Source of the DNA: a virus
Virus record (IMG/VR): IMGVR_UViG_3300009285_007418
Location: 1 to 37,716 of that record
Reading direction: 5' to 3' (one strand)
Length of the DNA: 37,716 bases
The translations under genes and the position numbers were made by a program. Below the pieces are notes generated by a model. It had not been told where the DNA came from, searched no databases, and saw only the letters and a list, made by a program, of their open reading frames with translations. Shown one piece after another: positions 567-27,174 of this stretch (within the stretch, counting starts at the first letter, position 1; each line of letters starts with the position of its first letter).

Positions 567-2523
567 TATTATTTCTGCTGGATGGTATTTATGGATGCCG
601 CGAGTTTTAAAGCCTTTGAGTGAATGGATTGCGAAGCGTTATGTTTCGCCTGCTGAGTCTGCGCGCCCGGGGCAGTGGGATAATGACACGACTCCCTTTG
701 CAGTCCCGGTGATGGATGCTTTTTCTAATCCAAAGGTTGAACGCATTACAATGGTTGGCTCTTCGCAGGTGGTTAAAACTGAAATCATCAAAAACATAAT
801 TGCATACATTATAGATAATAATATGGGACCGCTGCTTGTGGTGTATCCGAGTGATGGAGCTGCGCGTGAATTCTCTGTTGAAAAGCTTGAGCCGATGATT
901 GCACATAATAAATTTTTACGCGATAAAATTGCACCGGCAAAACCAAACAGTAAAGAGAATAAAACTCTCTATAAAAAGTTTGGACCTTACTTCCTGGCAA
1001 TTGTTGGAGGCAACGTTCCGCAGGATCTGGCTCGTAGATCTGTTAAGTATGTAATTGCTGATGACCGTGACCGAATCGGAACTGCAGGAAACGAAGGCGA
1101 TGCTGTTGAGCTTGCCTGGCAGAGAACTGAATCGTATGCTTTTCTCGGACGGAAGCGCGTGGAAATATCATCACCAACAATTGAGAACGCTTCTCCGATT
1201 ATGGATTCTTATGAATTATCGGATCAGGGCGAATGGTTTGTGCCGTGTCCGCATTGCGATCATTATCAAACATTTAAATTTGAAAATTTTGTATGGGATA
1301 AAACGGAAGAGAAAGATCTATTTAACAACGTAACAAAAAAAATCCACAGACCGGAAACGGTAAAGCTGAAATGCGAAAACTGTGCAGAGCTTATCGATGA
1401 AAAGCATAAGCAGTGGATGGTGAGCAGCGGAAAGCGTGTTTGCAAATTTCCTGAAAGAGTTGAGCATTTTGGTTTAAAAAATATTAATCGTATGTATTCC
1501 TTTTTTAGTCCGTGGTCGGGCATAGTTAAGGAATATCTTGATAGTAAAAACAATCGTCCAAAGCGTCAGGTATTCTGGAATACTGTTATGGGTATAACCT
1601 GGAAGCTGGATGTAAGCGAGACGATTGATGAAAATATTTTACTTAACCGGCTTGAGGATTATCTTACAGAAGATAAACCGTTCCTGCCGAATAAAATTTT
1701 ATATCTCACCTGCGCTGTTGACACACAGGGAGATCGTTTGGAGGTGCAGGTTGAAGGCTGGGGTTATGAGGAAGAGAACTGGGTTGTGCATTACGTGCAG
1801 CTCTGGGGTGACCCCGATATGCAGGATGTATGGAATCAGCTTGACGAGTTCCTTACAAAAACGTGGCAGCGCGAAGATGGTGCAACTTTGCAGATCGGCG
1901 GATATTATTTAGGCAAAAGATTCTTTGCAACTTTTATCGATAGCCAGGGCAAGAGTGCAAAATCGGTTTACGATTACTGCCTGCACCGCCAGCATAAAGG
2001 AATATTTTCAATTAAAGGAAGAGGCGGCACGGGACTTCCGCCGGTTATTAACCGCAGTAAAGTTGGGCAATACCGCCAAACGATACTCATCAACCTCGGT
2101 GTGGATTCAATTAAGGAAGTTATATGGAGCCGCTTGAAACGATTTCCTAAAGATGAGCAGGGTAATTTTAAGGGCGGCCCAAAGACCTGTCACTTTACAC
2201 GCGAGTTTTGCGATGAGATTTATTTTAAGATGCTGCTTGCTGAGCGTCCGCTGCTTAACGATGACCGGCGCGGCAACCAGATTATTCTCTGGAAAAAATT
2301 TCCAGCCGGTGCACGCAATGAGCCGTGGGATCTTAAGGTTTATAATTATGCTGCATACCTTTACAGTAATGTAAACTTGAGGCAGGTGGATGAAGCTATC
2401 CGTAACGAAATGATGAAGCAGAAAGTGGAAGAGCCGAAACCGCAGCAGTCCGGCAAACCGTTGTTTAAGAATAAAGTTAGTATGAGAGTTTCAAAAGGTT
2501 TTATTAATAGTTGGAATGAGTGA
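514..2523 (+). CDS. terminase large subunit, GpA family
   Basis: This is the ATPase-nuclease motor that cuts concatemers and pumps DNA into proheads. The ATPase part carries the P-loop region at residues 83-90 (SSQVVKTE) and a Walker B-like stretch at 180-187 (VIADDRDR). A zinc-binding knuckle follows (CPHC at 245-248, CENC at 287-290). The nuclease domain opens with CAVDTQGDRLEV at about residue 400, with Asp403 and Asp407 as likely metal ligands. Length is typical of the family. The widest frame starts at a TTG at 514. The ATG at 595 (residue 28) is an alternative just before the conserved N-terminus. The P-loop has Val87 where the family normally has Gly, and Walker B has Asp-Asp instead of Asp-Glu (see findings). 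Confidence 0.95.
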   Translation: MPNKHYILKHQYPAPLSNIISAGWYLWMPRVLKPLSEWIAKRYVSPAESARPGQWDNDTTPFAVPVMDAFSNPKVERITMVGSSQVVKTEIIKNIIAYIIDNNMGPLLVVYPSDGAAREFSVEKLEPMIAHNKFLRDKIAPAKPNSKENKTLYKKFGPYFLAIVGGNVPQDLARRSVKYVIADDRDRIGTAGNEGDAVELAWQRTESYAFLGRKRVEISSPTIENASPIMDSYELSDQGEWFVPCPHCDHYQTFKFENFVWDKTEEKDLFNNVTKKIHRPETVKLKCENCAELIDEKHKQWMVSSGKRVCKFPERVEHFGLKNINRMYSFFSPWSGIVKEYLDSKNNRPKRQVFWNTVMGITWKLDVSETIDENILLNRLEDYLTEDKPFLPNKILYLTCAVDTQGDRLEVQVEGWGYEEENWVVHYVQLWGDPDMQDVWNQLDEFLTKTWQREDGATLQIGGYYLGKRFFATFIDSQGKSAKSVYDYCLHRQHKGIFSIKGRGGTGLPPVINRSKVGQYRQTILINLGVDSIKEVIWSRLKRFPKDEQGNFKGGPKTCHFTREFCDEIYFKMLLAERPLLNDDRRGNQIILWKKFPAGARNEPWDLKVYNYAAYLYSNVNLRQVDEAIRNEMMKQKVEEPKPQQSGKPLFKNKVSMRVSKGFINSWNE

Positions 2524-3128
2524 TGATAAAATATCATTGTTTGTGTTGTAAAGAAGACAAAGGCGAGGATGATTTTTATTGGCGGAAAAATGGAAAGATT
2601 CATACACCTTGCAAAAAGTGTACAGCTAAGATTGGCAAAAAATATCGGATTAAAAATGATATCGCATTAAAAGAAAAATATAAAAAAAATGCGGAAAATA
2701 ATCGCGAGCTTTTGAGGAAAAGATATAAAAAATATAAGAAAGAAAAACCTGAATTGTCAAAAGCTAAAAATGCAAGATATTATCAAAAACACAAAGAAGA
2801 GTTACTTCAAAAAAGTAGAAGTTACAACCAGCGAGATTATGTTAAAGAAAAAAGGAAAATATATGTTCTCGGCCACAGAAAAGAAAAACGGACTTATGAT
2901 AAGAATAGAGTTGCAAATATAGATAATGGCTATGTGCGTGGTGTAATAAAAGTGCTTGCTGGAATGGAAAGCAAATATATTTCTGATGATCTGGTTGAAA
3001 GCAAAAAGCTTTTTATAATGATCAGAAGATATAAAGAAGGAAGATTGGCAGAGAATTTAAAACCAACATTAATTAACTTATTACAAAAACAAATTAGAGG
3101 GTACGAAAATGCAAGAATTAACAGATGA
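2523..3128 (+). CDS. small zinc-knuckle, lysine-rich protein (HNH-lineage-like N-terminus)
   Basis: The product is about 201 residues. Its N-terminus has two Cys-x2-Cys pairs (CLCC and CKKC) separated by an aromatic and basic stretch ending DDFYWRKNGKIHTPCKKC. This is the zinc module often found in front of phage HNH endonucleases, but I see no HNH catalytic core behind it. The middle is a very Lys/Arg-rich helix (residues about 40-120), which suggests nucleic-acid binding. The ATG at 2523 overlaps the terL stop (TGATG), implying coupling. It may be a cofactor of packaging or a nuclease remnant. Confidence 0.6.
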   Translation: MIKYHCLCCKEDKGEDDFYWRKNGKIHTPCKKCTAKIGKKYRIKNDIALKEKYKKNAENNRELLRKRYKKYKKEKPELSKAKNARYYQKHKEELLQKSRSYNQRDYVKEKRKIYVLGHRKEKRTYDKNRVANIDNGYVRGVIKVLAGMESKYISDDLVESKKLFIMIRRYKEGRLAENLKPTLINLLQKQIRGYENARINR

Positions 3129-3426
3129 AGAATTGTTTGACGGTGAATATAAATCATTTAAACTTATTATGATGGATGTTGAGGGTAAACCTGTTAACAA
3201 AGAAAGATTGGGGGCTTCTTACCATATCAGTTCAAAGGCTGATAAAAGGAGGCAACATAATACTGCTGCTAATCAAACAAAGATTCAATCAATAGTTTAT
3301 GCTGTTGAAAAAGGTAAATATTCATTGGAGGGTGGTATTGAAGATCTTTGTGATGTTGGAATATTAAATGCTAAAAATATTTTACGTGGTGCGCCTGCTC
3401 AATTGGAAGCTAAAAAGAAAGGATAA
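3109..3426 (+). CDS. hypothetical protein (105 residues)
   Basis: I do not recognise this family. The ATG has a good ribosome-binding site (GAGGG) lying inside the end of the previous gene, and the two genes overlap by 20 bases. The N-terminus is acidic, the middle is basic and polar (KADKRRQH), and the C-terminus is charged. No membrane segment or signal peptide is visible. The position between terL and connector genes suggests an accessory head or packaging role, but this is only context. Confidence 0.6.
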   Translation: MQELTDEELFDGEYKSFKLIMMDVEGKPVNKERLGASYHISSKADKRRQHNTAANQTKIQSIVYAVEKGKYSLEGGIEDLCDVGILNAKNILRGAPAQLEAKKKG

Positions 3427-3428
3427 AA

Positions 3429-3662
3429 ATGGATAAAGATAAAAACTATAACATCACAATCAACACAGAAGGTGGCTTCGGTGGTGATATGGACAAGTTT
3501 GCGCGTGAGATAATTTTTGATATTAAAAAAGCTAGAAAGGCAGAGCTACCGTCAGCGGAAAAGAAACTGATAGAGGTAAAAGAAAAGTTTTGGAAGCGCG
3601 AATTAAAAAAATTGAAACAACGGTTAGCTAAGTTCAAAATAAAACGTTCGCCCAAACTTTAA
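3429..3662 (+). CDS. small protein carrying a tape-measure C-terminus-like motif plus basic coiled coil
   Basis: The 77-residue product starts with a roughly 30-residue segment (INTEGGFGGDMDKFAREII) that matches the last 35 residues of this phage's tape measure protein at about 22 of 30 positions. Residues 40-75 form a strongly basic helix likely to be a coiled coil. The ATG follows a clear AAAGGA site two bases after the previous stop. Because tape measure C-termini act at the tail tip, this protein may bind the same partner. That role is inferred from the similarity alone. Confidence 0.65.
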   Translation: MDKDKNYNITINTEGGFGGDMDKFAREIIFDIKKARKAELPSAEKKLIEVKEKFWKRELKKLKQRLAKFKIKRSPKL

Positions 3663-3667
3663 AATAA

Positions 3668-4063
3668 ATGCGCTGCCCGCACTGCAAAACAAAAAACAAT
3701 TTTAAGCAGGAAGGCACATCTGTTTACTGTATTGCAAAAGTTAAGGCGGGGCTGGGCTTGTGCTGGTACACACTAACTCCGGAAGAGCGTAAAAAATATT
3801 TTGCAGAAAAAAGAAAACACGCAGAGCGGAAGAAGCGCAGTAAAGAATACTGGAAAAAATATTATTATGAACATCGCCGTGCGCGGCTGCATAATAATCG
3901 TAAATTTAAAGATGGAATAACTCTCAGCCAGGTTGCTATTATCAGAAAAACTTCGTATCAATCCGTGTGGAATAATTTAAGTAAATTTGATATCATCCCG
4001 GGAATAAAACCGGTGACGTTAAAGTTTAACCAAAAAGTAATTGAGTGGGTCCCGAAAAAATAG
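3668..4063 (+). CDS. zinc-ribbon and helix-turn-helix-like basic protein
   Basis: The 131-residue product begins with a CPHC pair and has further cysteines at YCIAK and LCWYT, forming a possible N-terminal zinc ribbon. A very basic helix follows (residues 40-80). The C-terminal part (residues 85-115, ITLSQVAIIRKTSYQSVWN) resembles a helix-turn-helix. This points to DNA or RNA binding, perhaps as a regulator or packaging accessory. No clear Shine-Dalgarno site precedes the ATG, which lies six bases after the upstream stop. I do not recognise a named family. Confidence 0.6.
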   Translation: MRCPHCKTKNNFKQEGTSVYCIAKVKAGLGLCWYTLTPEERKKYFAEKRKHAERKKRSKEYWKKYYYEHRRARLHNNRKFKDGITLSQVAIIRKTSYQSVWNNLSKFDIIPGIKPVTLKFNQKVIEWVPKK

Positions 4064-4090
4064 TAAGCAGTAAACAGTAAGTAGTAAGCA
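4061..4090. repeat. dispersed word, TAAGCAG/TAAACAG type
   Basis: This short intergenic stretch is built from near-repeats of AGTAAGCAGTAAACAGTAA. A 13-base part is found in reverse complement in the signal-peptide coding region at 20429-20460. A looser copy occurs in the attP region at 30215-30238. It looks like a fragment of a dispersed repeat rather than a regulatory site. Confidence 0.5.
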
Positions 4091-4112
4091 ATAAAATTTT
4101 AAAGGAGAAAAA

Positions 4113-4280
4113 ATGAAAAAAGACGAAGACTTATCAATCAAAACACCTTGTGCTTTTGCAGACGTAAAAAATATTAAACCGCTTCCACCTCCGTCAATTG
4201 CAGTAAAGGAAAGCGGTATTGGAACACCTTTGATTTTTGCAATAATGATATTTTGGTTGCTGATGTTTTTTTTGTTATAG
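4113..4280 (+). CDS. small protein with C-terminal membrane helix (55 residues)
   Basis: This short gene has an excellent ribosome-binding site (AAAGGAG, 7-9 bases before the ATG). The first 35 residues are polar and include a proline-rich piece (KPLPPPS). Residues 38-55 are a continuous hydrophobic stretch (PLIFAIMIFWLLMFFLL) with no residues after it, so it would be tail-anchored. Function is unknown. Confidence 0.6.
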   Translation: MKKDEDLSIKTPCAFADVKNIKPLPPPSIAVKESGIGTPLIFAIMIFWLLMFFLL

Positions 4281-4316
4281 GCTTATAGCTTACAGCCCGA
4301 AAGAAAGGATCTAACG

Positions 4317-4889
4317 ATGATTAACATAAAAACAAACATAGCCCAGTTCATCAACACCGAAATGAAGCGGATAAAGAATGCAACCAACACTGCAACGTTA
4401 TCCACAACAAATAAACTGGCTCAGCAGGGATTGACTGAAGCGCGTAAAACTATGCGTGAAGAATATAATATTAAGCTGAAGGATATCACGACTAACTCGA
4501 AAGGCAGGAGAGTAACTTATTACGAACGGGCAAAAGTTTTAAGCGAGCCTGCAAGCATCGTTGGTTTGGAGCCGGGAATATCACTCGGCAAGTTTGGCGC
4601 AAAGCAGAGAAAAGAAGGTGTTGCCGTCCAGGTTAAAAAGGGCGGAGCACCAAAAGTTATTAAGCACGCTTTTGGTCCCAAAATACCCCGGTTAGGTAAG
4701 GGGGTTTTTACCCGTCAGAATCCAAAAGATTCAACTGTGAGCAAGCGCCTGCCGATATTCCGTTTGTATGGTCCCGGTGCTGCAGTGATGATGAATAACA
4801 GAAAAGTATTTGCAAGAGTTAAAGCATTTGTCAGGGCAAAGTATGCTATTATTCTTGAACAAGAAATGAAATACAGATTAGGAAAATAA
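4317..4889 (+). CDS. minor tail protein Z-like tail completion/connector protein
   Basis: The 190-residue product resembles lambda gpZ, which is needed to finish and join the tail. It starts with an amphipathic helix (residues 5-30) and a conserved N-terminal region ending in TEARKTMREEYNIK. The C-terminal half has the family pattern RLPIFRLYGPGAAVMM followed by a final helix. Length fits the family. The gene lies earlier than in lambda, before the portal, so the module order is rearranged. An alternative reading is a generic head-tail connector. Confidence 0.7.
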   Translation: MINIKTNIAQFINTEMKRIKNATNTATLSTTNKLAQQGLTEARKTMREEYNIKLKDITTNSKGRRVTYYERAKVLSEPASIVGLEPGISLGKFGAKQRKEGVAVQVKKGGAPKVIKHAFGPKIPRLGKGVFTRQNPKDSTVSKRLPIFRLYGPGAAVMMNNRKVFARVKAFVRAKYAIILEQEMKYRLGK

Positions 4890-4898
4890 TAATTTAAT

Positions 4899-4932
4899 CC
4901 GGCTTCGTCCGGCAACCGCCGGACTACGCCGG
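4899..4932. repeat. strong intergenic hairpin (CCGGC...GCCGG)
   Basis: The two arms CCGGC-TTC-GTCCGGC and GCCGGAC-TAC-GCCGG pair perfectly around an AACC loop, apart from a symmetric 3x3 internal bulge. There is no T-run, so it is not a standard terminator. It sits 15 bases before the next ATG and leads into the ribosome-binding site of that gene. Confidence 0.75.
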
Positions 4933-4947
4933 GATAACGGAGGAAAA

Positions 4948-5157
4948 ATGAAGTATATAAAAATATTTTGTATTGGGACGATATTTAGTTTTGTTATTGG
5001 GCTACTCTTATTTTTAATGTTAATTTCTCTGGATCTTTCTGATAAATTGTCCCAGCAGCAAGTTGATATAATTGGTAATATTACTACGATTATTTCGGTA
5101 TTATTAGGCTTTCTCTTGGGGTATGCGTTTTATGAATCAAATAAAGAAATTTTATAA
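4948..5157 (+). CDS. two-helix membrane protein (69 residues)
   Basis: The product has two hydrophobic segments (residues 5-28 and 40-63) around a short polar loop containing DKLSQQQVD. The ATG follows the leader TAACGGAGGAAAA, and almost the same leader precedes the next gene at 5168. This suggests local duplication of the translation start or a recombination joint. No family is recognised. A holin-like or superinfection-exclusion role is possible but unsupported. Confidence 0.6.
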   Translation: MKYIKIFCIGTIFSFVIGLLLFLMLISLDLSDKLSQQQVDIIGNITTIISVLLGFLLGYAFYESNKEIL

Positions 5158-5167
5158 CGGAGGAAAA

Positions 5168-5380
5168 ATGAACAGAGTGTTTCACCAATATTTAATTAAT
5201 GATTTTATTGGGCAACATCGTAAGACTCAGGAAGATAAACTACCGATAGATGATGCAACCTATTCACTGATAGGTTATCCAATCCGATTTTATGAGGCTT
5301 GTTTAATATGGAAAAAATGTTCGGATGAATTAAAATTGGCTTTACAAAAAGAAATTGATGATATGAAAAAACAACCTTAA
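5168..5380 (+). CDS. hypothetical small soluble protein (70 residues)
   Basis: The frame is open from 5123, but the ATG at 5168 is chosen because a perfect ACGGAGG site precedes it and the upstream part overlaps the previous gene. The product is charged and helical, with several aromatic residues (RFYEACLIWKKC) and no membrane segment. I do not recognise it. Confidence 0.6.
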   Translation: MNRVFHQYLINDFIGQHRKTQEDKLPIDDATYSLIGYPIRFYEACLIWKKCSDELKLALQKEIDDMKKQP

Positions 5381-5525
5381 GTTTACTAACTACTCCCTAT
5401 TCCCTACTAACTTCTCCTTGATAATTTTTTACAACATTTCGGATTCATTCCTTTTAAAGCATTAACGAAGTTTACATCAGAATTCAAAAGACTTTAATCT
5501 TTTTACATTAATCTTTTATCTTGAT

Positions 5526-13032: not shown

Positions 13033-13186
13033 AAAATATTCTAACAACATTTTAGCAGAAGCATCGGGCTTGCCGGTTGGGTTTATTTCAGGATATCGAA
13101 AAAAAATATTTACAAGTAGCGTGATGAACGGAATCGAAAGATCAATACTTACAGGAATAAAAAAATATGAAAAGGGATTTAACTAA
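13016..13186 (+). CDS. small basic protein with possible helix-turn-helix (56 residues)
   Basis: This short frame starts 17 bases inside the previous gene and runs to a TAA at 13184. The stretch NILAEASGLPVGFISGYRKK has the spacing of a helix-turn-helix. The product is rich in Lys and small. Overlap with the previous gene and the lack of another gene before 13326 support it, but a weak start context leaves doubt. Confidence 0.4.
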   Translation: MKQILKKYSNNILAEASGLPVGFISGYRKKIFTSSVMNGIERSILTGIKKYEKGFN

Positions 13187-13191
13187 TTCAA

Positions 13192-13310
13192 CCCGTGAGA
13201 TAATCACGGAGAAATATAAATTATAAATGCGTGAGTAATATCTCACGGTCCACCCCGTGAGATAAAATATAATAAAAACCAAAACAGCCGTGAGCTATTT
13301 ATCTCACGGG
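13192..13310. repeat. two palindromic elements with CCCGTGAGATA ends
   Basis: The first element runs from CCCGTGAGATA at 13192 to TATCTCACGG at 13229-13238. The second runs from CCCGTGAGATA at 13254 to TATCTCACGGG ending 13310. The interiors are AT-rich and unrelated in length. They fill most of the gap before the tail chaperone gene and belong to a family also seen at 14007 and 29089. Confidence 0.75.
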
Positions 13311-13325
13311 ATAAAGGGATAAAAA

Positions 13326-13781
13326 ATGAGGGACTTAAAATCAAGCGATCAAAACTCAATAGTAGTTTTTGACAGTCTTACCGCAACGAAGATAAAATTA
13401 TTTTATCGCACACCTACAACCAAAGAACGGCTCAGATATAAATCTGATATCGTTAATGTATTAACCAAAACCAAAAGCGTGGAGGAAGGCACAAAGATGC
13501 AGCTCCAATGGGCAAAGGAACTGGTCACCGGTTTCCGCCAGGGTGATTTTGGTTATGACGGCAAAGCGATATCTGCAAATAAAGATGATGAAAATTATTA
13601 CCAGGCGTGGAAATCTTTAATGGAAGAAACTGCTTCCGATATAATGCTTGCATTTATTGAAACTGTTATGGACCGTCCGGTGATGGTTATTAAAGATGTT
13701 GAGGTGGACGAAAGTTTTTTTTCCGGGAACTCCAGGGACTCGATAACCTCTGGACAGGCGAAAAGCGAGAACAATACTTAA
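13326..13781 (+). CDS. tail assembly chaperone, short (G-like) form
   Basis: The 151-residue product lies directly before the tape measure gene, which is the place of lambda gpG. Tail assembly chaperones bind the tape measure and recruit tail tube subunits. Residues 10-130 appear as a compact folded domain (KIKLFYRTPTTKERLRY..., DIMLAFIETVMDRP). After residue 131 the zero frame gives a short polar tail (GNSRDSITSGQAK) typical of frame read past a slip site. A run of eight T at 13715-13722 sits at the end of the folded part. The gene is preceded by palindromic elements and a GGGAT site. Confidence 0.8.
   Translation: MRDLKSSDQNSIVVFDSLTATKIKLFYRTPTTKERLRYKSDIVNVLTKTKSVEEGTKMQLQWAKELVTGFRQGDFGYDGKAISANKDDENYYQAWKSLMEETASDIMLAFIETVMDRPVMVIKDVEVDESFFSGNSRDSITSGQAKSENNT
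13715..13721 (+). other. programmed -1 frameshift site T-TTT-TTT
   Basis: Zero-frame codons are AGT TTT TTT TCC, so T-TTT-TTT fits the canonical slippery heptamer pattern. A -1 slip leads into an open frame to 14005 with no credible start of its own. A short CCAG/CTGG pairing lies downstream (about 13731-13755), but no strong stimulatory stem is obvious. Confidence 0.8.
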
Positions 13782-14005
13782 AGCAATTCAAAGGTAATGA
13801 AAATGCGGTTGCACTTGTTGAAGCTGAATATGATAAAGACCTTGTACTCGATGCACGGTTTATTCATTCGCTTTACCTGCTGCAATTGCAGAAGTCGGGA
13901 ATACCTTTTCAAATGGATGATCTGACAGAAGAAGAATGGAAATGGTTAGCATATATAAAATCAGCAAACGACAAATTTTACTTGTGGAAACATCGGCGCA
14001 ATTAA
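13721..14005 (+). CDS. tail assembly chaperone -1 frame extension (T-like part of GT-like product)
   Basis: Reading one base back at the T-run gives about 94 more codons, starting FRELQGLDNLWTG and ending FYLWKHRRN, for a fused product of about 226 residues. The extension is a clearly coding-type sequence, with an acidic helix (TEEEWKWLAYIKSANDKFY) and regular hydrophobic spacing. It has no upstream ATG and no ribosome site. In lambda the GT form binds both tape measure and tail tube protein. The ratio of the two forms is normally set by the slip frequency. Confidence 0.8.
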   Translation, partial: FRELQGLDNLWTGEKREQYLKQFKGNENAVALVEAEYDKDLVLDARFIHSLYLLQLQKSGIPFQMDDLTEEEWKWLAYIKSANDKFYLWKHRRN

Positions 14006-14006
14006 A

Positions 14007-14096
14007 CCCGTGAGATAGAGTTGTAAAAATTGAAAAATAAAATTAAAAATATAATTAATAAAAAAATATCCTGCGAATTAAATATTATCTCACGGG
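14007..14096. repeat. palindromic element with CCCGTGAGATA ends, before the tape measure
   Basis: CCCGTGAGATA at 14007-14017 is inverted as TATCTCACGGG at 14086-14096. The 68-base interior is almost entirely A and T. The right end lies four bases before the tape measure ATG, where a ribosome site would normally be. Confidence 0.75.
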
Positions 14097-14100
14097 TTAA

Positions 14101-15705
14101 ATGGCTAATAAAGTTGAAATACAAATAGTCGGTAACAACGTTTATGCAGTAAATGCAATTGACGGTGTAAAGACAAAGCTGGGCACATTAGAGAAGCAGT
14201 CGAGAACTACTGCCGATAGAATGATGGGTCATTTCAAAATGATCGGCGGTGCTTTTCTTGCCGGTGGTGCTATTAGTTTTATGAAGTCGTCTATTGAAGC
14301 TTTCAAGGAACAGGAAATGGCAGCTAAGAAACTTGATGTTGCTTTGGGCAGGAATTCGTTTAGCCTGCAGCAATATGCCAGCCATCTTCAGAAAACAACA
14401 ACTTTCAGCGATGAACTTTCAATTGAATCAATGAGCTTGATTGCTGCTTTCACAAAGGAAGAATCGCAAATTAAAAAACTTATCCAGGCTTCTATGGATT
14501 TGTCGGCAGCAAAAGGAATTGAATTACATATGGCTACCGATTTTATTACCAAAGCGGTTTATACTGAATATACTGGTCAGCTACATAGACAGGGCATTGA
14601 AGCTAAGGGTGTCGTAGGTTCTATAGCACGGCTTAATATGGTAGTTGAACAGATTTCAGAGCTTTACGGCGGGCAGGCAACCGAACAGGCAAAAACTTAT
14701 AGCGGCCAGCTGGAAATATTAAATAATGCGCTCAGCGATCAGCAGGAGGATATCGGCGGTGCATTGCTGCCAATATGGGTTGCGTTCAACCAGGTGATTG
14801 CAGACAACATAAAAAATCTTCAGATACTGAGCGGGCTTGACTATGGTAAAATGCTGGCAATGCAGGAAGCAGCAGCATTATCTGAATTAGGCAAATTAAC
14901 AAACGAAAGATTTGATGTATTGCTTGAAACTTTTAATGTATATGAAGCAATGAGCGGGCAAACCGTAATACTAACTGATCACCAAAAGAAAGCATTAAAA
15001 GAGGCAGCGAAGAATAGGGAGGAAGAAGAAAAAAAGCTTGAAGCTTTAAGAAAGCAAAACCAGGAACGCAGGGAAGAAATTGCTTTTATGGAATTCCGGG
15101 CGGTGATGGATGCAGAACTGGATGAAGAAGGTATGTATGAACCGCCATCATTTGAGCCAATTGAGTCGGATAGATTAAACACCTATATGCGATATCAGAT
15201 GAATTTAATTGATGATCTGAAAGAATATGAGCTTGCTGCTTTTGAGTCAAGAGAAAACGCGGCTTTACAGTCGTTTAGCAATATGGCTAATGCTATGTAC
15301 AGTTTTTATGATGCAACCGGTCAAAGATCGAAGGCGGCATTTGCATTATTTAAAGCATTCTCAATTGCGCAAACAATCGCTGCCACTTACGTTGCTGCAA
15401 CTGCAGCTCTGGAACCTCCTCCGATTGGTGCCGGTCCTTTATTCGGGCCAATCCTGGCAGCTACAACTATTGCAGCAGGGCTTGCCAATGTTGCAAGCAT
15501 TCTTTCAACCAATATTGGCTCGCACGGTGGTGGTGGTGGAAGATCTGCTTCCCCTTCAATGCCGGGTAACATTACAAACAGCAATAACAGAAATGCTAAT
15601 TACAGCATTGTAATAAACACTCAGGGCGGCTTTTCGGGGGATCCTGATAAGTTTGCACGTGAAATAATATGGCATTTAGACAAGGCGAGAAGTGATGGCG
15701 GATGA
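14101..15705 (+). CDS. tape measure protein (short)
   Basis: The 534-residue product sets tail length and is later ejected with DNA. It begins with the usual tape measure start (a beta segment then NAIDGVKTKLGTLEKQS). It has a hydrophobic piece at 48-60 (IGGAFLAGGAISFM), long helices with a coiled coil at 300-330 (EEEEKKLEALRKQ) and a membrane-like Ala/Gly/Ile stretch at 425-475. A Gly-run linker (GGGGG) follows, then a C-terminal motif INTQGGFSGDPDKFAREII. At roughly 1.5 angstrom per residue it would give a tail of about 80 nm. The tail chaperone gene precedes it, as expected. Confidence 0.92.
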   Translation: MANKVEIQIVGNNVYAVNAIDGVKTKLGTLEKQSRTTADRMMGHFKMIGGAFLAGGAISFMKSSIEAFKEQEMAAKKLDVALGRNSFSLQQYASHLQKTTTFSDELSIESMSLIAAFTKEESQIKKLIQASMDLSAAKGIELHMATDFITKAVYTEYTGQLHRQGIEAKGVVGSIARLNMVVEQISELYGGQATEQAKTYSGQLEILNNALSDQQEDIGGALLPIWVAFNQVIADNIKNLQILSGLDYGKMLAMQEAAALSELGKLTNERFDVLLETFNVYEAMSGQTVILTDHQKKALKEAAKNREEEEKKLEALRKQNQERREEIAFMEFRAVMDAELDEEGMYEPPSFEPIESDRLNTYMRYQMNLIDDLKEYELAAFESRENAALQSFSNMANAMYSFYDATGQRSKAAFALFKAFSIAQTIAATYVAATAALEPPPIGAGPLFGPILAATTIAAGLANVASILSTNIGSHGGGGGRSASPSMPGNITNSNNRNANYSIVINTQGGFSGDPDKFAREIIWHLDKARSDGG

Positions 15706-20407: not shown

Positions 20408-22696
20408 ATGAAAAAAATAATTTTAATACTGCTTACTGTTTACTGTTTACTGATTACTGGTTACGCTCAGGAAAACAATCATATTTTTGTTGAACGCGGA
20501 TCCACAACAACATTAACGTGGAAAGCTGCCGGTGATTACTCTGCTTACGACAGTCTTTACTTTGTAGTTAAGCCCTGCACATCTAATACGTGCGCACGCT
20601 TAATACAAAAACCAACTACCGTAAGTTACAGCGAGCCTTACACAACATTAACCTGCACGCTTTATGTGGATGAAACGGCGAGCTTTAATGCGGCAAAGTA
20701 TTACTATTCCATCTATGCTTACGGACCCGATACAGTTTGGGTTACAAGCGGTAATTTTAATTTGATGCTGAACGGGCAAACTCCCACAGATGGAGTGCCG
20801 ACAACAAGTCCTTACTATACAATTGCGCTTTCACCTCCTGTTCACGACCCCGCTTATATTATTGGTGACAGCTCTGCCGATAGCTGGAGTCAAATTGATT
20901 CTGATTCAATGAGAGTGTTGCTTGGTGTGGATACTGTAACATTCGCAACCTCTCTCCCCGACTCCATTATATACACAAGCGAGACTGCTGACTTTGTAAC
21001 TAAGTCAACAGCACAGACGATTACAGCACAGAAGAATTTTATGGGAATGGTTAAATTCAACTCTGATACTTCTATGATTGCCGGAACTACTGATGACGGG
21101 ATACCTCTATTCTTGAAATGGGATTTAGCAAAGAATTACAGTACATATTATTCAATCGCTAATTTGTTCACCGTGTCACCATCAGGCTCAGACTCAGTAA
21201 GTGATTGGACTATGCAATTCAGGACTTGGAATTATTTAGGGGTTATGGGTCACGGTATGTATTTTGGATTGAACCAAAATTATAGACGACTAAACGAACC
21301 TATCTTTTCTTTTGTTAGCGAAGCACCTTATCGGGCATTAGATAGTGTAGAAATTTATGAATGGTATTGGGCTTGGGCAAACAAAATAAATTCTCCAGAT
21401 TATAGTTACAGACCATTTGGATTAGCTGTTTATTATTACAGAGACCCAATCACAAATTTACCACTTAATACATCCCCTGGGATTCAATTAACCCCAGCTC
21501 TCTCTGAGATAACATTCTTAGATAAAGACAGAAATTATATTATGCAAATGTTATTTGATGGTAGCGGATATTCAAATTGGGCTATAGATGATACATTCAA
21601 TATAAGTTACCACGTGAATAATGGGAATTGGCTCTATCAAACTAAATCGGATGGAGTGACTGGCAAGGAAATAATAAGAGTTGACGATGATGATGATGTA
21701 GTCGTAAGTCCAGATGGATCAGACCATATAAAGTTAAAATCGCCTATCAATGGGCAAGTAAAATGGAATAAAACTCAAAGCTCTGGTACTATACCGATAG
21801 AACCAGATACTTCTAATGATAAATTAAACATTGGCAGCAATGAAGGATTATTCACACAGCAATTATCGGTTGGATATTTTTATACTGATACAACTGGGAG
21901 ATTAAGCGGCGAAATAATAGCAAACCCAAATTCGGGAGTCCTAAGCTATTTGTTTCCATTGGATATTGTCGTCAATGGAGATTTCACGGATTGGACGGGA
22001 GACGACCCCGATGGTTGGACTGTGCAATCAGAAGATGCTGGGAATTATGTGGAGGAAAGCCCAACGGGACAACTTCATTTTGTAACTGATGGTTTGTTGG
22101 GGCCGAGTGTCAGGTGGGGTTTAAGTCAGGACGTCCTTATGCTTGGTGTAACCTATGGATATTCTTTTGAAGTTACTGTTGCAACTTCTGATACAGTTGT
22201 AGTTGCTTTTGATGGGGTTAACTTAAATATAAGCACAGTAGGTATATTCATTGGTGAATTTACGGCGACAGGTTCTACACAAATACTTATAAGAGAAAAC
22301 TTTGGTGCCGCTAATATTACGTTTGACAATTTCAAAGTATGGGTTAAAAATGGTGCTGCTAAACAACCAACTTATATTATCCACGCACCACAAAGACCAG
22401 ACCAAATATTAAATCCTACAGTTGATGATACTGTAAGTAATTTTTATACACATAGTGCGATCATAATAGATTCAATTCAAGTTAGAACTGATGATTCCAT
22501 AACAGTAGTAGGAACTTTCGGGGCTTTGGGATTAGGCACAACTTGTTTTAATGCTTATACAAATGTTTCTGGATGGAATTCTATTACAACTTTTAATGAT
22601 GCCACAATTCCTGCGGGTAATGAAGTTTATTTTTACTTCACTTATATAGGCGATGCTTTAACTTATTTTAGATACAAGATTTATTGGAGAGAGTGA
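20408..22696 (+). CDS. large signal-peptide tail-fibre-like protein (BppU-like N-terminus, carbohydrate-binding-like end)
   Basis: The 762-residue product has a signal peptide (IILILLTVYCLLITG, cleavage at GYA-Q, residue 20). Residues 25-125 (FVERGSTTTLTWKAAGDYSAYDSLYF) resemble baseplate-upper-protein N-terminal domains. KSTAQTITAQKNFMGMVKF at about 200 is the phage fibre motif usually written 'qtI.g.KtF.g.v.f'. Residues about 520-650 (VVNGDFTDWTGDDPDGWTV, TFDNFKVW) look like a carbohydrate-binding beta-sandwich. The last 110 residues form another beta domain. Likely role: receptor binding. No ribosome site is visible. The start lies in a dispersed-repeat leader. Confidence 0.75.
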   Translation: MKKIILILLTVYCLLITGYAQENNHIFVERGSTTTLTWKAAGDYSAYDSLYFVVKPCTSNTCARLIQKPTTVSYSEPYTTLTCTLYVDETASFNAAKYYYSIYAYGPDTVWVTSGNFNLMLNGQTPTDGVPTTSPYYTIALSPPVHDPAYIIGDSSADSWSQIDSDSMRVLLGVDTVTFATSLPDSIIYTSETADFVTKSTAQTITAQKNFMGMVKFNSDTSMIAGTTDDGIPLFLKWDLAKNYSTYYSIANLFTVSPSGSDSVSDWTMQFRTWNYLGVMGHGMYFGLNQNYRRLNEPIFSFVSEAPYRALDSVEIYEWYWAWANKINSPDYSYRPFGLAVYYYRDPITNLPLNTSPGIQLTPALSEITFLDKDRNYIMQMLFDGSGYSNWAIDDTFNISYHVNNGNWLYQTKSDGVTGKEIIRVDDDDDVVVSPDGSDHIKLKSPINGQVKWNKTQSSGTIPIEPDTSNDKLNIGSNEGLFTQQLSVGYFYTDTTGRLSGEIIANPNSGVLSYLFPLDIVVNGDFTDWTGDDPDGWTVQSEDAGNYVEESPTGQLHFVTDGLLGPSVRWGLSQDVLMLGVTYGYSFEVTVATSDTVVVAFDGVNLNISTVGIFIGEFTATGSTQILIRENFGAANITFDNFKVWVKNGAAKQPTYIIHAPQRPDQILNPTVDDTVSNFYTHSAIIIDSIQVRTDDSITVVGTFGALGLGTTCFNAYTNVSGWNSITTFNDATIPAGNEVYFYFTYIGDALTYFRYKIYWRE
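20429..20460. repeat. dispersed word forming part of a signal peptide
   Basis: The bases are near-tandem copies of TTACTGTTTACTG. Thirteen bases match the reverse complement of the intergenic word at 4064-4080. In frame they encode the hydrophobic core TVYCLLIT. Confidence 0.55.
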
Positions 22697-23478
22697 TGAA
22701 AACAATATTTATCTTTTTACTTTTATCTTTTACACTTCAAGCACAAGGATTCAAAACTCTTGTTCTTTTAATGGAGGATGAAGTGGTCGCAGAAGATGTT
22801 TATGCTGTTGACCTAAATGGTTCAAATGAATACGCAACGAAAACATCGCCGACAGATGTTGACTTATCTGCCACTACTTTTTCTATTATTGCTTGGGTGA
22901 AAACACCGAGCACAATAGACGGAGGACAAAGAGCAATAATCTCGACAGATGCCAATCCTACAAGGGGTTGGGTATTTATGCTCGCAGCAAACGAAGCTTG
23001 GGCTTTTGTGATGGACAATAGCACGGGTGTTGCTGTTGTTTCACCCGCCGAAACAGAAACAGATACTTGGAGACTTATTATTGCGACTTGTTTTGATTTA
23101 ACTGGAGGAGTATCGGATTATAAGGTATATGTTGATGGGGTCGCAACGACAACGCTTAATCAAGGCAATACAAGCTCTGGCGATTCTAAATTAACGGTCG
23201 GGCAAGATGGATATTCTCAAGGATGGTATTATCCAGGGTTAATAGGGCAAGTTCAAATTGTAAGCGGGTATGCTTTAACAGCAGATGAAGTTACAGTCCT
23301 ATATAATGCAGGTGGCACATTAAACGCTTCTTACTTGGGCGGAACGGTTGTCGCTTGGTATAAATGGAGTGGTACTACTGATGTAGAAATGTTAAATGAT
23401 TATTCAGCAAGCGGGAATGATTTAACTGGGACAAACGTAACAACCGCAGACCAAGTTTTAATCGGGGCTACTTACTAA
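22696..23478 (+). CDS. secreted LamG/concanavalin-like lectin domain protein
   Basis: The ATG at 22696 overlaps the previous stop (TGATG) and is preferred over the in-frame start 12 bases upstream. The first 15 residues (FIFLLLSFTLQAQG) are a short signal peptide with an LQA-Q cleavage site. The rest is a single LamG-like jelly roll: VDLNGSNEYATKTSPTDVDLSATTFSIIAWVK, then RGWVFML, YKVYVDGV, LTVGQDG, and the LIGQVQIVSGYALTADEV strand that closes such domains. These domains bind carbohydrate. In this position it is likely an adhesion or fibre-tip protein. Confidence 0.8.
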   Translation: MKTIFIFLLLSFTLQAQGFKTLVLLMEDEVVAEDVYAVDLNGSNEYATKTSPTDVDLSATTFSIIAWVKTPSTIDGGQRAIISTDANPTRGWVFMLAANEAWAFVMDNSTGVAVVSPAETETDTWRLIIATCFDLTGGVSDYKVYVDGVATTTLNQGNTSSGDSKLTVGQDGYSQGWYYPGLIGQVQIVSGYALTADEVTVLYNAGGTLNASYLGGTVVAWYKWSGTTDVEMLNDYSASGNDLTGTNVTTADQVLIGATY

Positions 23479-23796
23479 ATGAAATATCTTTTCAGCCAGA
23501 GGCTGATGAGCCTCATATTCATATTACTAACAATAACTTCTTTTGCACAGGAAGTAATTATAATCCAGAGAGGAAGCGGAACACCTAACCCGCCTGATAT
23601 TACTATTGATTATATGGTCACTTCTGAGGGTGATACGATGTTTACATCAGGGGGTGATACAATGAAATTAGCTTTTATTCAATTTGATATTTTAGAACAA
23701 ATTAAAAACGGAGATAATGGTGAAGAAGATATTATTCTTCCTCAGCGTACTTATGCTGTTCTCAACAGCAAACGCACAATGGACTTCACAGTTTAA
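23479..23796 (+). CDS. small signal-peptide protein, possibly rearranged 3' end
   Basis: The 105-residue product begins right after the previous stop with a signal peptide (core LMSLIFILLTITS, cleavage SFA-Q near 24). The mature part is short and Gly/Thr-rich (GTPNPPDITIDY, GDTMFTSGGDTMK). The last 27 codons overlap the next gene in another frame, which suggests that the true 3' end was replaced during rearrangement. The start region contains the hairpin word TCAGCC-AGA-GGCTGA at 23492-23506. Confidence 0.5.
   Translation: MKYLFSQRLMSLIFILLTITSFAQEVIIIQRGSGTPNPPDITIDYMVTSEGDTMFTSGGDTMKLAFIQFDILEQIKNGDNGEEDIILPQRTYAVLNSKRTMDFTV
23492..23506. repeat. TCAGCC-AGA-GGCTGA hairpin word in a signal peptide
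   Basis: The same TCAGC...GCTGA word occurs in intergenic DNA at 11598-11618 and 35548-35562. Here it encodes the first residues of a signal peptide. Confidence 0.6.
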
Positions 23797-24790
23797 TAAT
23801 GCTTGGTGGTCAAACACCGAAGATGCCATAAATCGTTGGTTCCCTACTGGTAGAGATTCGGCCTCTACATTATTGATTGTAGGAGGCAGCGGAGATACTG
23901 TCCAAGTAAGAGGCAAGTTTTATTTCTGGCGGACTAATAGATATGTCCCGGAAGATAGTTTATATACCATCGCACAAATTGCAGCAGCATACCAACCATT
24001 AGAAACAACCTTAACAGATATTGCCGATGGAACGATAGATGAGAACTTAGTTAATACTGCTAATCCTTGGGCTGAGAATGAAATAGATTCTACAATGGCG
24101 ACTAAAACAAATGTGAGTGATTCAATAGCTGCTCATACAGTAGAAGGAACAGCTAATAATCAATTTATGCACTATGATTTAGGCAATGGATGGACGGCTC
24201 TTTCAGCAAGTGTAACTGGTGACAGTTTATTTAAGGCTTATACTAACTTACCAACAGCAACTACAATAGGGACTGCTTATATTTATAGAGTAGGTGGAAC
24301 AGACGTAACTGATGCAGACGTAGCTGATAATATTACAATCACTAATATTTCACAAGTCGGAGATATAACAGCAACAGCAGCAGAGATAAATTATACTACT
24401 GATGTTACTTCAAATATACAGGCACAATTCAAGGGGAAAGCAGATACTCTTGCTTACCATTGGGGAGTAATGGATACAGTCACAGTTGGTGATTTAATTG
24501 CTTATAAAGTGGAATCGAATATAACGATAATAAAAGTTAGTACTTATGGAACTACCGATAGTGTAAGATTCAATATACAGGAAAGGGCAGCAACTACTCC
24601 CAACACAGCAGGGGATTCTTTATTTGCTTCTCCTATGTGGTCTCCTACAACTGGCAGAGATTCAACTTCATTTAGCGGTTCAGGTGGTGCTAATTTTGCT
24701 AAAAATACCTGGATTCAACCGGTAGTAAACGATATAACAAATGCAACAAGATTTGGAATAACGGTATGGTATATAAAACAATCTTATTAA
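23717..24790 (+). CDS. signal-peptide tail-fibre protein with classic fibre motifs
   Basis: The 357-residue product has a signal peptide (KKILFFLSVLMLFSTANA-Q). The mature part carries recognisable phage fibre motifs: YQPLETTLTDIADGTIDENL with NPWAENEI at about residues 91-122, and ITATAAEINYTTDVTSNIQ at about 220-238, the latter equivalent to the common 'TA.ELNyldGvtsniQ' repeat. The C-terminus (SFSGSGGANFAKNTWIQP) is beta-rich and may be the tip. A GGAG site three bases before the ATG lies inside the previous gene, and the two frames overlap by 80 bases. This is the clearest case of a fibre with an export signal. Confidence 0.8.
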   Translation: MVKKILFFLSVLMLFSTANAQWTSQFNNAWWSNTEDAINRWFPTGRDSASTLLIVGGSGDTVQVRGKFYFWRTNRYVPEDSLYTIAQIAAAYQPLETTLTDIADGTIDENLVNTANPWAENEIDSTMATKTNVSDSIAAHTVEGTANNQFMHYDLGNGWTALSASVTGDSLFKAYTNLPTATTIGTAYIYRVGGTDVTDADVADNITITNISQVGDITATAAEINYTTDVTSNIQAQFKGKADTLAYHWGVMDTVTVGDLIAYKVESNITIIKVSTYGTTDSVRFNIQERAATTPNTAGDSLFASPMWSPTTGRDSTSFSGSGGANFAKNTWIQPVVNDITNATRFGITVWYIKQSY

Positions 24791-25563
24791 TAACTTTAAG
24801 TGTATTCTTAATAAACGCACAAATAATACTTAATCCTAAAAGGAGTGATATACTAAATCCTCCTGGTGGTAGTGGTGGTGGAATCCCTGTTATCGAATCA
24901 TTTACCACCGATTCTATTTTAGCGGCACAAAGATTAATCTTGAATAAACCTTCGGGAGTGGTATCAGGCAACTTACTTATAATCGCAGTCACTAATGAAA
25001 ACACGGATGATACTCAACAATGGAATAATACAACATATAAACCTTCCGGGTTTACCTGGATTACAACTTCTCTTGGAACTGCCGTAACAGGCACAAATAA
25101 TTCACAGACTCATTGTGCTGTATTCTGGAGGATAGCTGATGGTTCAGAAAATGATACTATTGGTGTGCCTTGTGTTGGCGGTGTTATGGAGCAGATTGGT
25201 TTTTATTTAAGAATTTCAGGTGCTCACGCAACTACGCCAATTGATGTATCGGATAGCCCGATGGATTCAACTTATTACAACGAGCGAGACTCTATCCAAA
25301 TTCACAGTTTAACGACTGGTTATGCTAACGAGCTTGCTTTATTTGTTTGTGCAAGAGATTATGGAGATGGATTACCGCACACTGTTTCTGGGACGGGCTG
25401 GAGTAAAATTTCCGAAAACTTAGCAAATGCAGGTGACTTTGGTTTAACTGCAAGCATAGGACAAAAAGATGTAACATCAGCAGGTGCAACTGGGCAAGTT
25501 ACAGTAACAGCTATAACGGCAAGGGGTTCTGTGGGATTCCAGTTTACAATCAGGAGTCCGTAA
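24766..25563 (+). CDS. signal-peptide beta-sandwich protein of the fibre cassette
   Basis: The 265-residue product begins within the end of the previous gene. It has a signal peptide (TILLITLSVFLINA-Q). A short linker with PPGGSGGG leads into one large beta domain of about 215 residues (ESFTTDSILA..., LLIIAVTNENTDDT, YANELALFVCARDYG, VGFQFTIRSP). This pattern matches secreted or fibre-associated beta-sandwich domains seen in many phage and bacterial surface proteins. It probably forms an adhesive tip. I do not recognise a precise family. Confidence 0.65.
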   Translation: MVYKTILLITLSVFLINAQIILNPKRSDILNPPGGSGGGIPVIESFTTDSILAAQRLILNKPSGVVSGNLLIIAVTNENTDDTQQWNNTTYKPSGFTWITTSLGTAVTGTNNSQTHCAVFWRIADGSENDTIGVPCVGGVMEQIGFYLRISGAHATTPIDVSDSPMDSTYYNERDSIQIHSLTTGYANELALFVCARDYGDGLPHTVSGTGWSKISENLANAGDFGLTASIGQKDVTSAGATGQVTVTAITARGSVGFQFTIRSP

Positions 25564-25566
25564 TTG

Positions 25567-27174
25567 ATGAAATTAATTTTAACAATAATATATACGATAG
25601 CTTTAGTTGTTGTTTTAAGTTATAGTTTATTTGCTACTAACTGGTATTGTGATGGTGCTTTAACAGGCACGGATAATGGAGGCACAAGCTGGGCTGATGG
25701 ATGGGAATCTTTTGCAGAAATAAACTGGGCTTCGATAGGTGCTGGTGATTATCTTTACATTTCAGGCGGGACTGATTCTCTTATTTACTATGAAACATTA
25801 ACTCCTCAATGTCAAGGAACAATTACTAACCAAATTACTATCATAGCTGGTAAATATTCTCCTTCTCCTTCCGGACATTCAGGCAGAGTGATAATAGATG
25901 GTCAAGCACAAACAAGAGATAATAGCATTTTATTTGATGATTATGCTGGTGGGTCTCCTGCTTATATCACTGTTAAAGGATTTGAACTTAGACAAGCTAC
26001 CGGGGGGATTGAGTTTAACATTGATGATGTTACTCCGCCTTTAGCAATAGGAATTATAATAGATTCTTTATACATATATGATTGGTATGACTTAGCCGGA
26101 ATACAAGTTCAGGGGAATACAGACGGCTTAATCGTTCAAAATTGTAGAATTGTAACTTTTCTAAATGATGGCGTTCAAACTGATTGTTTCCATTTTAATG
26201 GTACAGATACTCAACACGCAAGAAGAACAATAATTCGTAACAATGTTATTCTAAATAAGAATCAAGACCCATTAGCTCACAATGATGCTATACAGGGTGT
26301 TATCGCTGATGGTTTCGTGATTTATAATAATATTATAGTAAATGATTCAGTTTATTCTTCAGAAGGTGGCGGATTACCATTTATACTTGGAGATATTGAT
26401 TATAATTACGGTGAAGCAATAGAGAATAGATACCCTGTTATTCTTTATAATAATTTTTGTTATATGGGAGGAGTTTGGTATCCAAATGGTAATCAAGGTT
26501 TTACGATGTGGACAAGATATTACAGTGATGAAATACATCAACCGCTTACTTATATTATAAATAATACAGTAGTAACAAATGGACCCAGAGTAGCGGGTAT
26601 GGGTCAGGAATATAAGATGCACCTTGTCATAAATAATATTAACGCAATGTATTGTTTACCAGATGGGACTTATGGCGAAGATTGGAGAACTGGCGGGACA
26701 CACGGTTGGCAGAGTAACTTTTCTGCAAATAGTGGATGGGAAACCGCTATGGATATAGATTCTATAAGAAGTAATTTATTTTGGAAAGAAGATAGTACTC
26801 AGACTTTATTTATTGGAGGTTATACATATCACGACCCACCAGGTGGAACAGGCGGAATTAGTGGATGGTCAGATTGGTTAAGTAAAGGTGGAACGGGACT
26901 TAATCGTAATCCAAAATTCGAGCAGAACTTCGGACACGAACCGAACCAGAGTGTTTTAGTTCCTGATTTACAAGCAGGTTCACCAGCTACAGGAGCCGGT
27001 GAATCTTTAAGAGCTTTGTTTGATTATTTTGAAGCTACCTGGGGAATTATTCTACCAGAAACAGATATGTACGGCAACACAAGGGATATTGACAATCCAT
27101 CAATAGGGGCTTATGAATTTCAAACTGGGGCGACACCAGCAATAATAACTAAAGTTTTACCAGGAAATCAATGA
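25567..27174 (+). CDS. secreted right-handed beta-helix protein (tailspike/depolymerase-like)
   Basis: The ATG at 25567 is taken rather than the TTG three bases upstream. Residues 1-24 are a signal peptide or membrane anchor (ILTIIYTIALVVVLSYSLFA). The body has repeated short strands with Asn and Ile in register (IIRNNVILNKN, VIYNNIIVND, VILYNNFCYM, YIINNTVVTN). This is the signature of parallel beta-helices such as pectate lyases and tailspikes. The end DMYGNTRDIDNPSIGAYEF is the common C-terminal cap of these secreted proteins. It probably degrades or binds surface polysaccharide. No catalytic residues can be assigned by eye. Confidence 0.75.
   Translation: MKLILTIIYTIALVVVLSYSLFATNWYCDGALTGTDNGGTSWADGWESFAEINWASIGAGDYLYISGGTDSLIYYETLTPQCQGTITNQITIIAGKYSPSPSGHSGRVIIDGQAQTRDNSILFDDYAGGSPAYITVKGFELRQATGGIEFNIDDVTPPLAIGIIIDSLYIYDWYDLAGIQVQGNTDGLIVQNCRIVTFLNDGVQTDCFHFNGTDTQHARRTIIRNNVILNKNQDPLAHNDAIQGVIADGFVIYNNIIVNDSVYSSEGGGLPFILGDIDYNYGEAIENRYPVILYNNFCYMGGVWYPNGNQGFTMWTRYYSDEIHQPLTYIINNTVVTNGPRVAGMGQEYKMHLVINNINAMYCLPDGTYGEDWRTGGTHGWQSNFSANSGWETAMDIDSIRSNLFWKEDSTQTLFIGGYTYHDPPGGTGGISGWSDWLSKGGTGLNRNPKFEQNFGHEPNQSVLVPDLQAGSPATGAGESLRALFDYFEATWGIILPETDMYGNTRDIDNPSIGAYEFQTGATPAIITKVLPGNQ

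Follow-up and report, generated by a model that had tools for sequence, protein, structure and literature searches.

A stand-alone copy of the tape-measure C-terminal module in a 77-residue protein of an uncultured phage

The tail tape-measure protein (TMP) of an uncultured phage ends in a module that the same phage also encodes at the N-terminus of a separate protein of 77 amino acids. The phage is known from an IMG/VR record of 37,716 bases, which was analyzed at its full length and is called the window here. Judged from the sequences, the 77-aa protein is an old, constrained, stand-alone copy of the C-terminal module of TMP, and a copy of this kind has been clearly seen in one phage so far. 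Two readings of its role lead the field. The first, to which we give a probability of about 0.4 and which is drawn by analogy, is that the 77-aa protein is a selected late protein that mimics in trans the docking end of the phage's own TMP and acts at the tail hub; in the second the mimic serves as a decoy for an inhibitor of tail assembly.

The window contains terS and a GpA-type terL, which overlap, as well as genes for the portal, a fused protease/major head protein and head closure, a tail chaperone region, the tape measure, tail-tip genes, an endolysin, a tyrosine recombinase and a DnaG-like primase. With an integrase present, the phage is a temperate one of the lambda type. Its closest annotated phage relatives share only 26-37% identity per protein, and homology was therefore sought at the protein and profile level. 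The features on which the analysis rests are collected in Table 1.

Table 1. Features of the window around the 77-aa gene and the tape-measure gene
Feature	Coordinates	Strand	Basis or remark
3-kb cargo slot, terL to head-tail adaptor gene	2524..5525	+	gap comparison with relatives
202-aa protein, mobile-looking gene, two genes upstream of the 77-aa gene	2520-3128		weak phrog endonuclease match, E 2e-4
105-aa protein, function unassigned, ends 2 nt before the 77-aa gene	3109..3426	+	no convincing family match
Ribosome-binding-site-like AAAGGA, five bases 5' of the ATG of the 77-aa gene	3418..3423	+	sequence
77-aa protein (P0001), N-terminal TMP C-terminal module and basic helical tail	3429..3662	+	ORF; predicted pI 10.0
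Duplicated module, residues 2-37: extended/strand NYNITIN, Gly turn, helix DMDKFAREIIFDIKKAR	3432..3539	+	alignment; helix 18-38 predicted
Second helix, basic amphipathic, residues 43-68	3555..3632	+	predicted; no homologue found
131-aa protein, two CxxC-like motifs, possible HTH by eye, starts 5 nt after the 77-aa gene	3668..4063	+	sequence
Tail tape-measure protein (TMP), 534 aa	14101..15705	+	phrog_9483 tail length tape measure, E 9e-17, aligned to residue 533; TMP homologues
TMP C-terminal module (residues 496-531), other copy	15586..15693	+	alignments to the 77-aa protein and TMP relatives

In a BLASTP comparison, residues 2-37 of the 77-aa protein align with TMP residues 496-531 with 22/36 identical and 29/36 similar positions (E 3e-14), and there is no further similarity between the two proteins, the next stretch having an E of 28. 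The first-pass annotation had put the match at about 22 of 30 positions and had seen no other part of TMP shared; the count is right for the core (22/31 from NY to KAR) and there is indeed only one significant BLASTP stretch. In the whole record, copies of the module are found in just two places (E 1e-47 and 2e-12). Their DNA is only 62% identical and 23 of the 41 differences fall at third codon positions (23/36 such positions differ), which points to an old resemblance at the protein level and not to a recent DNA repeat; with this identity and with synonymous sites saturated, a recent DNA duplication is ruled out. A three-residue insert (TEG/TQG) is common to the 77-aa protein and the window TMP and absent from the other aligned TMPs, which implies that the copy derives from this TMP lineage.

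To judge by the alignments, the TMP family around phrog_9483 has its most conserved end in this module. The end shared by 14-15 non-redundant metagenomic or MAG phage TMPs is of the type strand-G-x-x-x-D-x-DKFARE-helix-...KA, with the family layout being hydrophobic strand - G - x - x - x - D - [HQP] - DKFARE - helix - KA - x - x - D - G. TMPs with this end were reached by three routes. Portal homology led to the TMPs of two relatives, L015 and L016; a scan of viral contigs for DxDKFARE gave 39 matches, in nine of which the motif stands at the extreme C-terminus of a TMP and is followed by 13-15 residues; and a profile of the TMP C-terminus, run against genomes and viral contigs, recovered 14 viral contigs, several of which repeat earlier finds, as well as a provirus in an Omnitrophota MAG. 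The invariance of DKFARE is partly by construction because two of the three routes required it, and its unbiased witnesses are the two relatives recovered via their portals. The TMPs of the distant phages RcRhea, CRP-811, Vibrio phi 2 and S-LBS1 end in a glycine-rich linker, a strand and a helix without this sequence.

The product of the small gene is MDKDKNYNITINTEGGFGGDMDKFAREIIFDIKKARKAELPSAEKKLIEVKEKFWKRELKKLKQRLAKFKIKRSPKL. Past the module it is strongly basic, with 15 K+R versus 5 D+E in the 40 residues from 38 to 77. A single-sequence structure model of the protein is of moderate quality (pLDDT 73) and has two helices (18-38 and 43-68); the model of the TMP C-terminus is poor (pLDDT 53) and ends in a matching helix, and fold searches returned nothing usable. 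The 77-aa sequence has no signal peptide and no membrane or hydrophobic segment. The long helical or hydrophobic body and the position after the tail chaperones that are typical of TMPs are not seen either, the gene being located between terL and portal, about 11 kb from the TMP gene. A family of unknown function, phrog_27995 (67 positions), matches residues 7-51 weakly (E 0.007) and has no match in 50 other records, and known anti-phage defence families (PADLOC profiles) do not match the 77-aa protein. The gene is tightly packed between its two neighbors, all of them being co-directional with terL, and it is probably expressed late, as part of a tightly packed late operon.

Where terL, the adaptor gene and portal could all be located in a relative, terL and the adaptor gene are mostly less than about 130 nt apart, compared to 3,003 nt in the window; a few relatives also have cargo there, e.g., 1.5 kb in L062 and 3.1 kb in L078. 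Since the slot is usually empty, the 77-aa gene occupies an accessory position. The 131-aa protein encoded next to it has no family match in profile searches. A Neck1/tail-completion gene (4317-4889) is also found inside the slot, which places it upstream of portal and not after the gene for the major head protein; in the relatives L016 and L137, Neck1-like genes seem, by eye, to be located upstream of terS.

The divergence of the two module copies bears on whether the small gene has been under selection. Different synonymous codons are used for 14/22 of the shared residues, and dN is about 0.31, with dS being at least 1.2 or saturated. Duplication was simulated with the TMP copy constrained and the small copy either constrained or not, at six divergence levels with 2,000 runs each (12,000). 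An unconstrained copy retained at least 22/36 identity and a stop-free frame at the observed synonymous divergence in 0 of 12,000 runs, and a constrained copy reached the observed combination in up to 11% of runs. The near saturation of synonymous sites together with the outcome of the simulation indicates that the 77-aa copy has been constrained. In addition, residues common to the window TMP and that of L015, the relative found independently via its portal, are preferentially kept in the 77-aa protein (11/13 vs 11/25, p 0.018). A neutral relic that decayed in place is ruled out by this simple codon simulation, with the caveat that a recent capture from a related phage's diverged TMP would leave the same pattern, in which case the constraint could not be credited to the small gene.

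Similar small proteins near terL, which the first-pass annotation had proposed to look for in other phages, did not turn up: about 100 related loci yielded no other case. A survey of 7,921 ORFs (about 90 related loci and the window) gave the phage's own TMP as the sole further match of the 77-aa protein, and direct homologues are absent from 50,697 phage records, from viral contigs (by protein, alignment or GDxDKFARE pattern) and from solved structures. When 384 genomes from one phylum were searched with an HMM, the only matches were a TMP, an aminotransferase-like protein that is unrelated, and an ORF lying antisense to a superoxide-dismutase-like gene. A small ORF that bears the C-terminus of a large protein of the same locus was seen, in about 100 loci, only in this window; the other within-locus matches comprise ORFs that overlap the same gene on the opposite strand, and a repeat next to a reverse-transcriptase cassette in L009. 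Among about 17 TMP-bearing records, one weak case of a second TMP-end copy was noted, in the record of L095, where a zinc-finger protein of about 117 residues (L151 207-695, at the record start) contains KINIKVKGNVIDQGKLAGAI, to be compared with KINIYVQGNIVDQDKFAREL at the end of its own TMP (pairwise E 1e-5, profile E 7e-4). This protein lacks DKFARE, is encoded in the early region and has an RHH-like end by eye; it is possibly a second, weaker case and is best treated as a lead. A limited full-text search of the literature found no description of a free TMP-C-terminus protein.

What the module may do is suggested by the TMPs of known siphophages. Phage TP901-1 without the last 30 TMP residues produces heads only and no tails (PMC5099701), and helices inside the hub are formed by the last 33 TMP residues in JBD30 (PMC11445458), by the last 20 in 80alpha (PMC7048315) and by gpH residues 818-842 in lambda (PMC10721106). 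Structures and deletions thus place such ends in the tail-tip initiation complex, and the view of the first-pass annotation that the shared piece is a tail-tip end agrees with this. The module is like these ends (of JBD30 gp46, lambda gpH, 80alpha gp57 and TP901-1 TMP) in that it is the same end of TMP, has about 30-35 residues and a predicted C-terminal helix; it differs in that it is also present in a separate 77-aa protein, where it is N-terminal and followed by a basic helix. As no sequence match between the module and TMPs of solved structure was found, the docking role is transferred by position and layout.

If the 77-aa protein is a hub mimic, its strand-turn-helix would dock in trans at the hub partner of the TMP C-terminus, the second basic helix would add a coiled-coil contact or displace a partner, and the docked protein would modulate tail initiation as an accessory part. 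The homology to TMP, the family-wide nature of the module, the shared insert, the constraint, the ribosome-binding site, the tight packing behind terL and the literature all speak for hub mimicry. Other considerations speak against it. The gene has been clearly seen in one case only, so relatives can do without it. If a phage produces a free docking module alongside TMP, poisoning of its own tails is to be expected, except where affinity or dose is tuned. The 77-aa protein also lacks the conserved D-G in which TMPs end, and the extreme C-terminus makes contacts in 80alpha and JBD30. Lambda offers a parallel in its gpC/Nu3 pair, where the C-terminal part of a structural protein is likewise produced on its own as an assembly factor. 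Nu3 is made from an in-frame internal start in gene C, whereas the copy described here is a second gene that has diverged and lies far from the first.

The other leading reading, again an analogy and in our opinion unlikely, though a serious competitor, is that the 77-aa protein mimics the TMP C-terminus and soaks up an inhibitor, either a resident prophage's or the phage's own. Tab, encoded by the P. aeruginosa prophage/phage JBD26, blocks tail assembly in a manner linked to the C-terminal region of TMP, and it is antagonized by anti-Tab, a small protein whose late-operon gene lies beside the terminase genes (PMC10884400). The 77-aa gene also occupies an accessory slot beside terL of a temperate phage, is found in one phage only and resembles the very region to which Tab and anti-Tab are tied; a mimic used in this way need not poison its own hub. 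Being located in the phage's own late region, which argues against a purely inhibitory role, and at an accessory location, the gene makes a decoy attractive. In its specific form, in which a soluble imitation of the TMP end guards tail assembly from a resident tail-assembly blocker, so that mimicry of the attacked part of the virion becomes a means of counter-defence, the proposal is a doubtful one. JBD26 anti-Tab does not resemble the C-terminus of its TMP, the 77-aa protein has no sequence similarity to Tab or anti-Tab, neither a Tab homologue nor an inhibitor gene was identified in the window, and the residues kept in the 77-aa protein include those conserved in the TMP family, which fits hub binding too. 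The Tab/anti-Tab pair sits between terS and terL, whereas the 77-aa gene lies after terL. Given the lack of a Tab homologue and of any likeness between anti-Tab and its TMP, the likeness is one of possible function, not of membership.

Small phage-encoded proteins linked to TMP are also known among superinfection-exclusion proteins, such as Ltp of TP-J34 and HK97 gp15, which are membrane or surface proteins functionally tied to TMP. Both are cited in PMC10884400 and PMC3952083. The 77-aa protein differs from these in being basic and in having no lipoprotein or membrane anchor and no signal peptide.

It is improbable that the 77-aa gene is a functionless TMP fragment that moved in with the mobile-looking gene two genes upstream and inherited its divergence from a related phage's TMP. 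The accessory slot and the weak endonuclease match would suit such a history, and a recent capture would explain the dN/dS values without selection on the small gene; on the other hand, the 77-aa frame is intact, has a ribosome-binding site and is tightly coupled to its neighbors, a neutral copy in place is rejected by the simulation, and searches of viral contigs and genomes found no donor TMP with the shared TEG/TQG insert. About equally improbable is a minor virion component, in which the module would anchor the protein in the tail-tip lumen beside TMP and the basic helix would contact the leading DNA end or the membrane at ejection: it would make use of both the hub-type docking module and the basic predicted helix, but the three-fold hub sites are already filled by TMP in known structures and the gene is absent in relatives. 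A chance motif, or a general one, the latter being a possibility which the first-pass annotation had raised, can be dismissed as the source of the shared stretch, for the bare DxDKFARE string does occur in unrelated proteins (DMDKFARET is found near the N-terminus of one recurrent unrelated family, lacking the preceding strand), but 36 residues align at E 3e-14 and share an insert, and the motif with its preceding strand was found only at TMP C-termini and the full motif in no other small protein.

The last 30 or so residues of TMP start tail assembly, and a selected free copy of them would be a ready-made probe for their binding partner. If naturally selected, the copy would represent a regulator of tail assembly of a new kind or else a new form of counter-defence by mimicry; its relevance is the greater as the C-terminal part of TMP is the target of at least one prophage defence (PMC10884400).

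Several observations were made on the tail genes of the window. The ORF at 13326-13781 overlaps an open frame reaching about 14005, with a T8 run, AAAGTTTTTTTTCC (about 13713-13722), inside the overlap, and the two frames resemble the tail assembly chaperones (G/GT type) that are usually encoded as a pair joined by frameshifting. Repeated inverted elements, CCCGTGAGATA / TATCTCACGGG, located at 13186-13315 and 13998-14105, lie on both sides of the chaperone gene and ahead of the tape measure; they are possibly transcript-end hairpins or binding sites. Further downstream, 22684-27174 is a large tail-tip or fibre region in which most proteins are without a family match; the protein at 22684-23478 is concanavalin A-like (Laminin_G_3), and 25564-27174 has a weak choice-of-anchor Q match.
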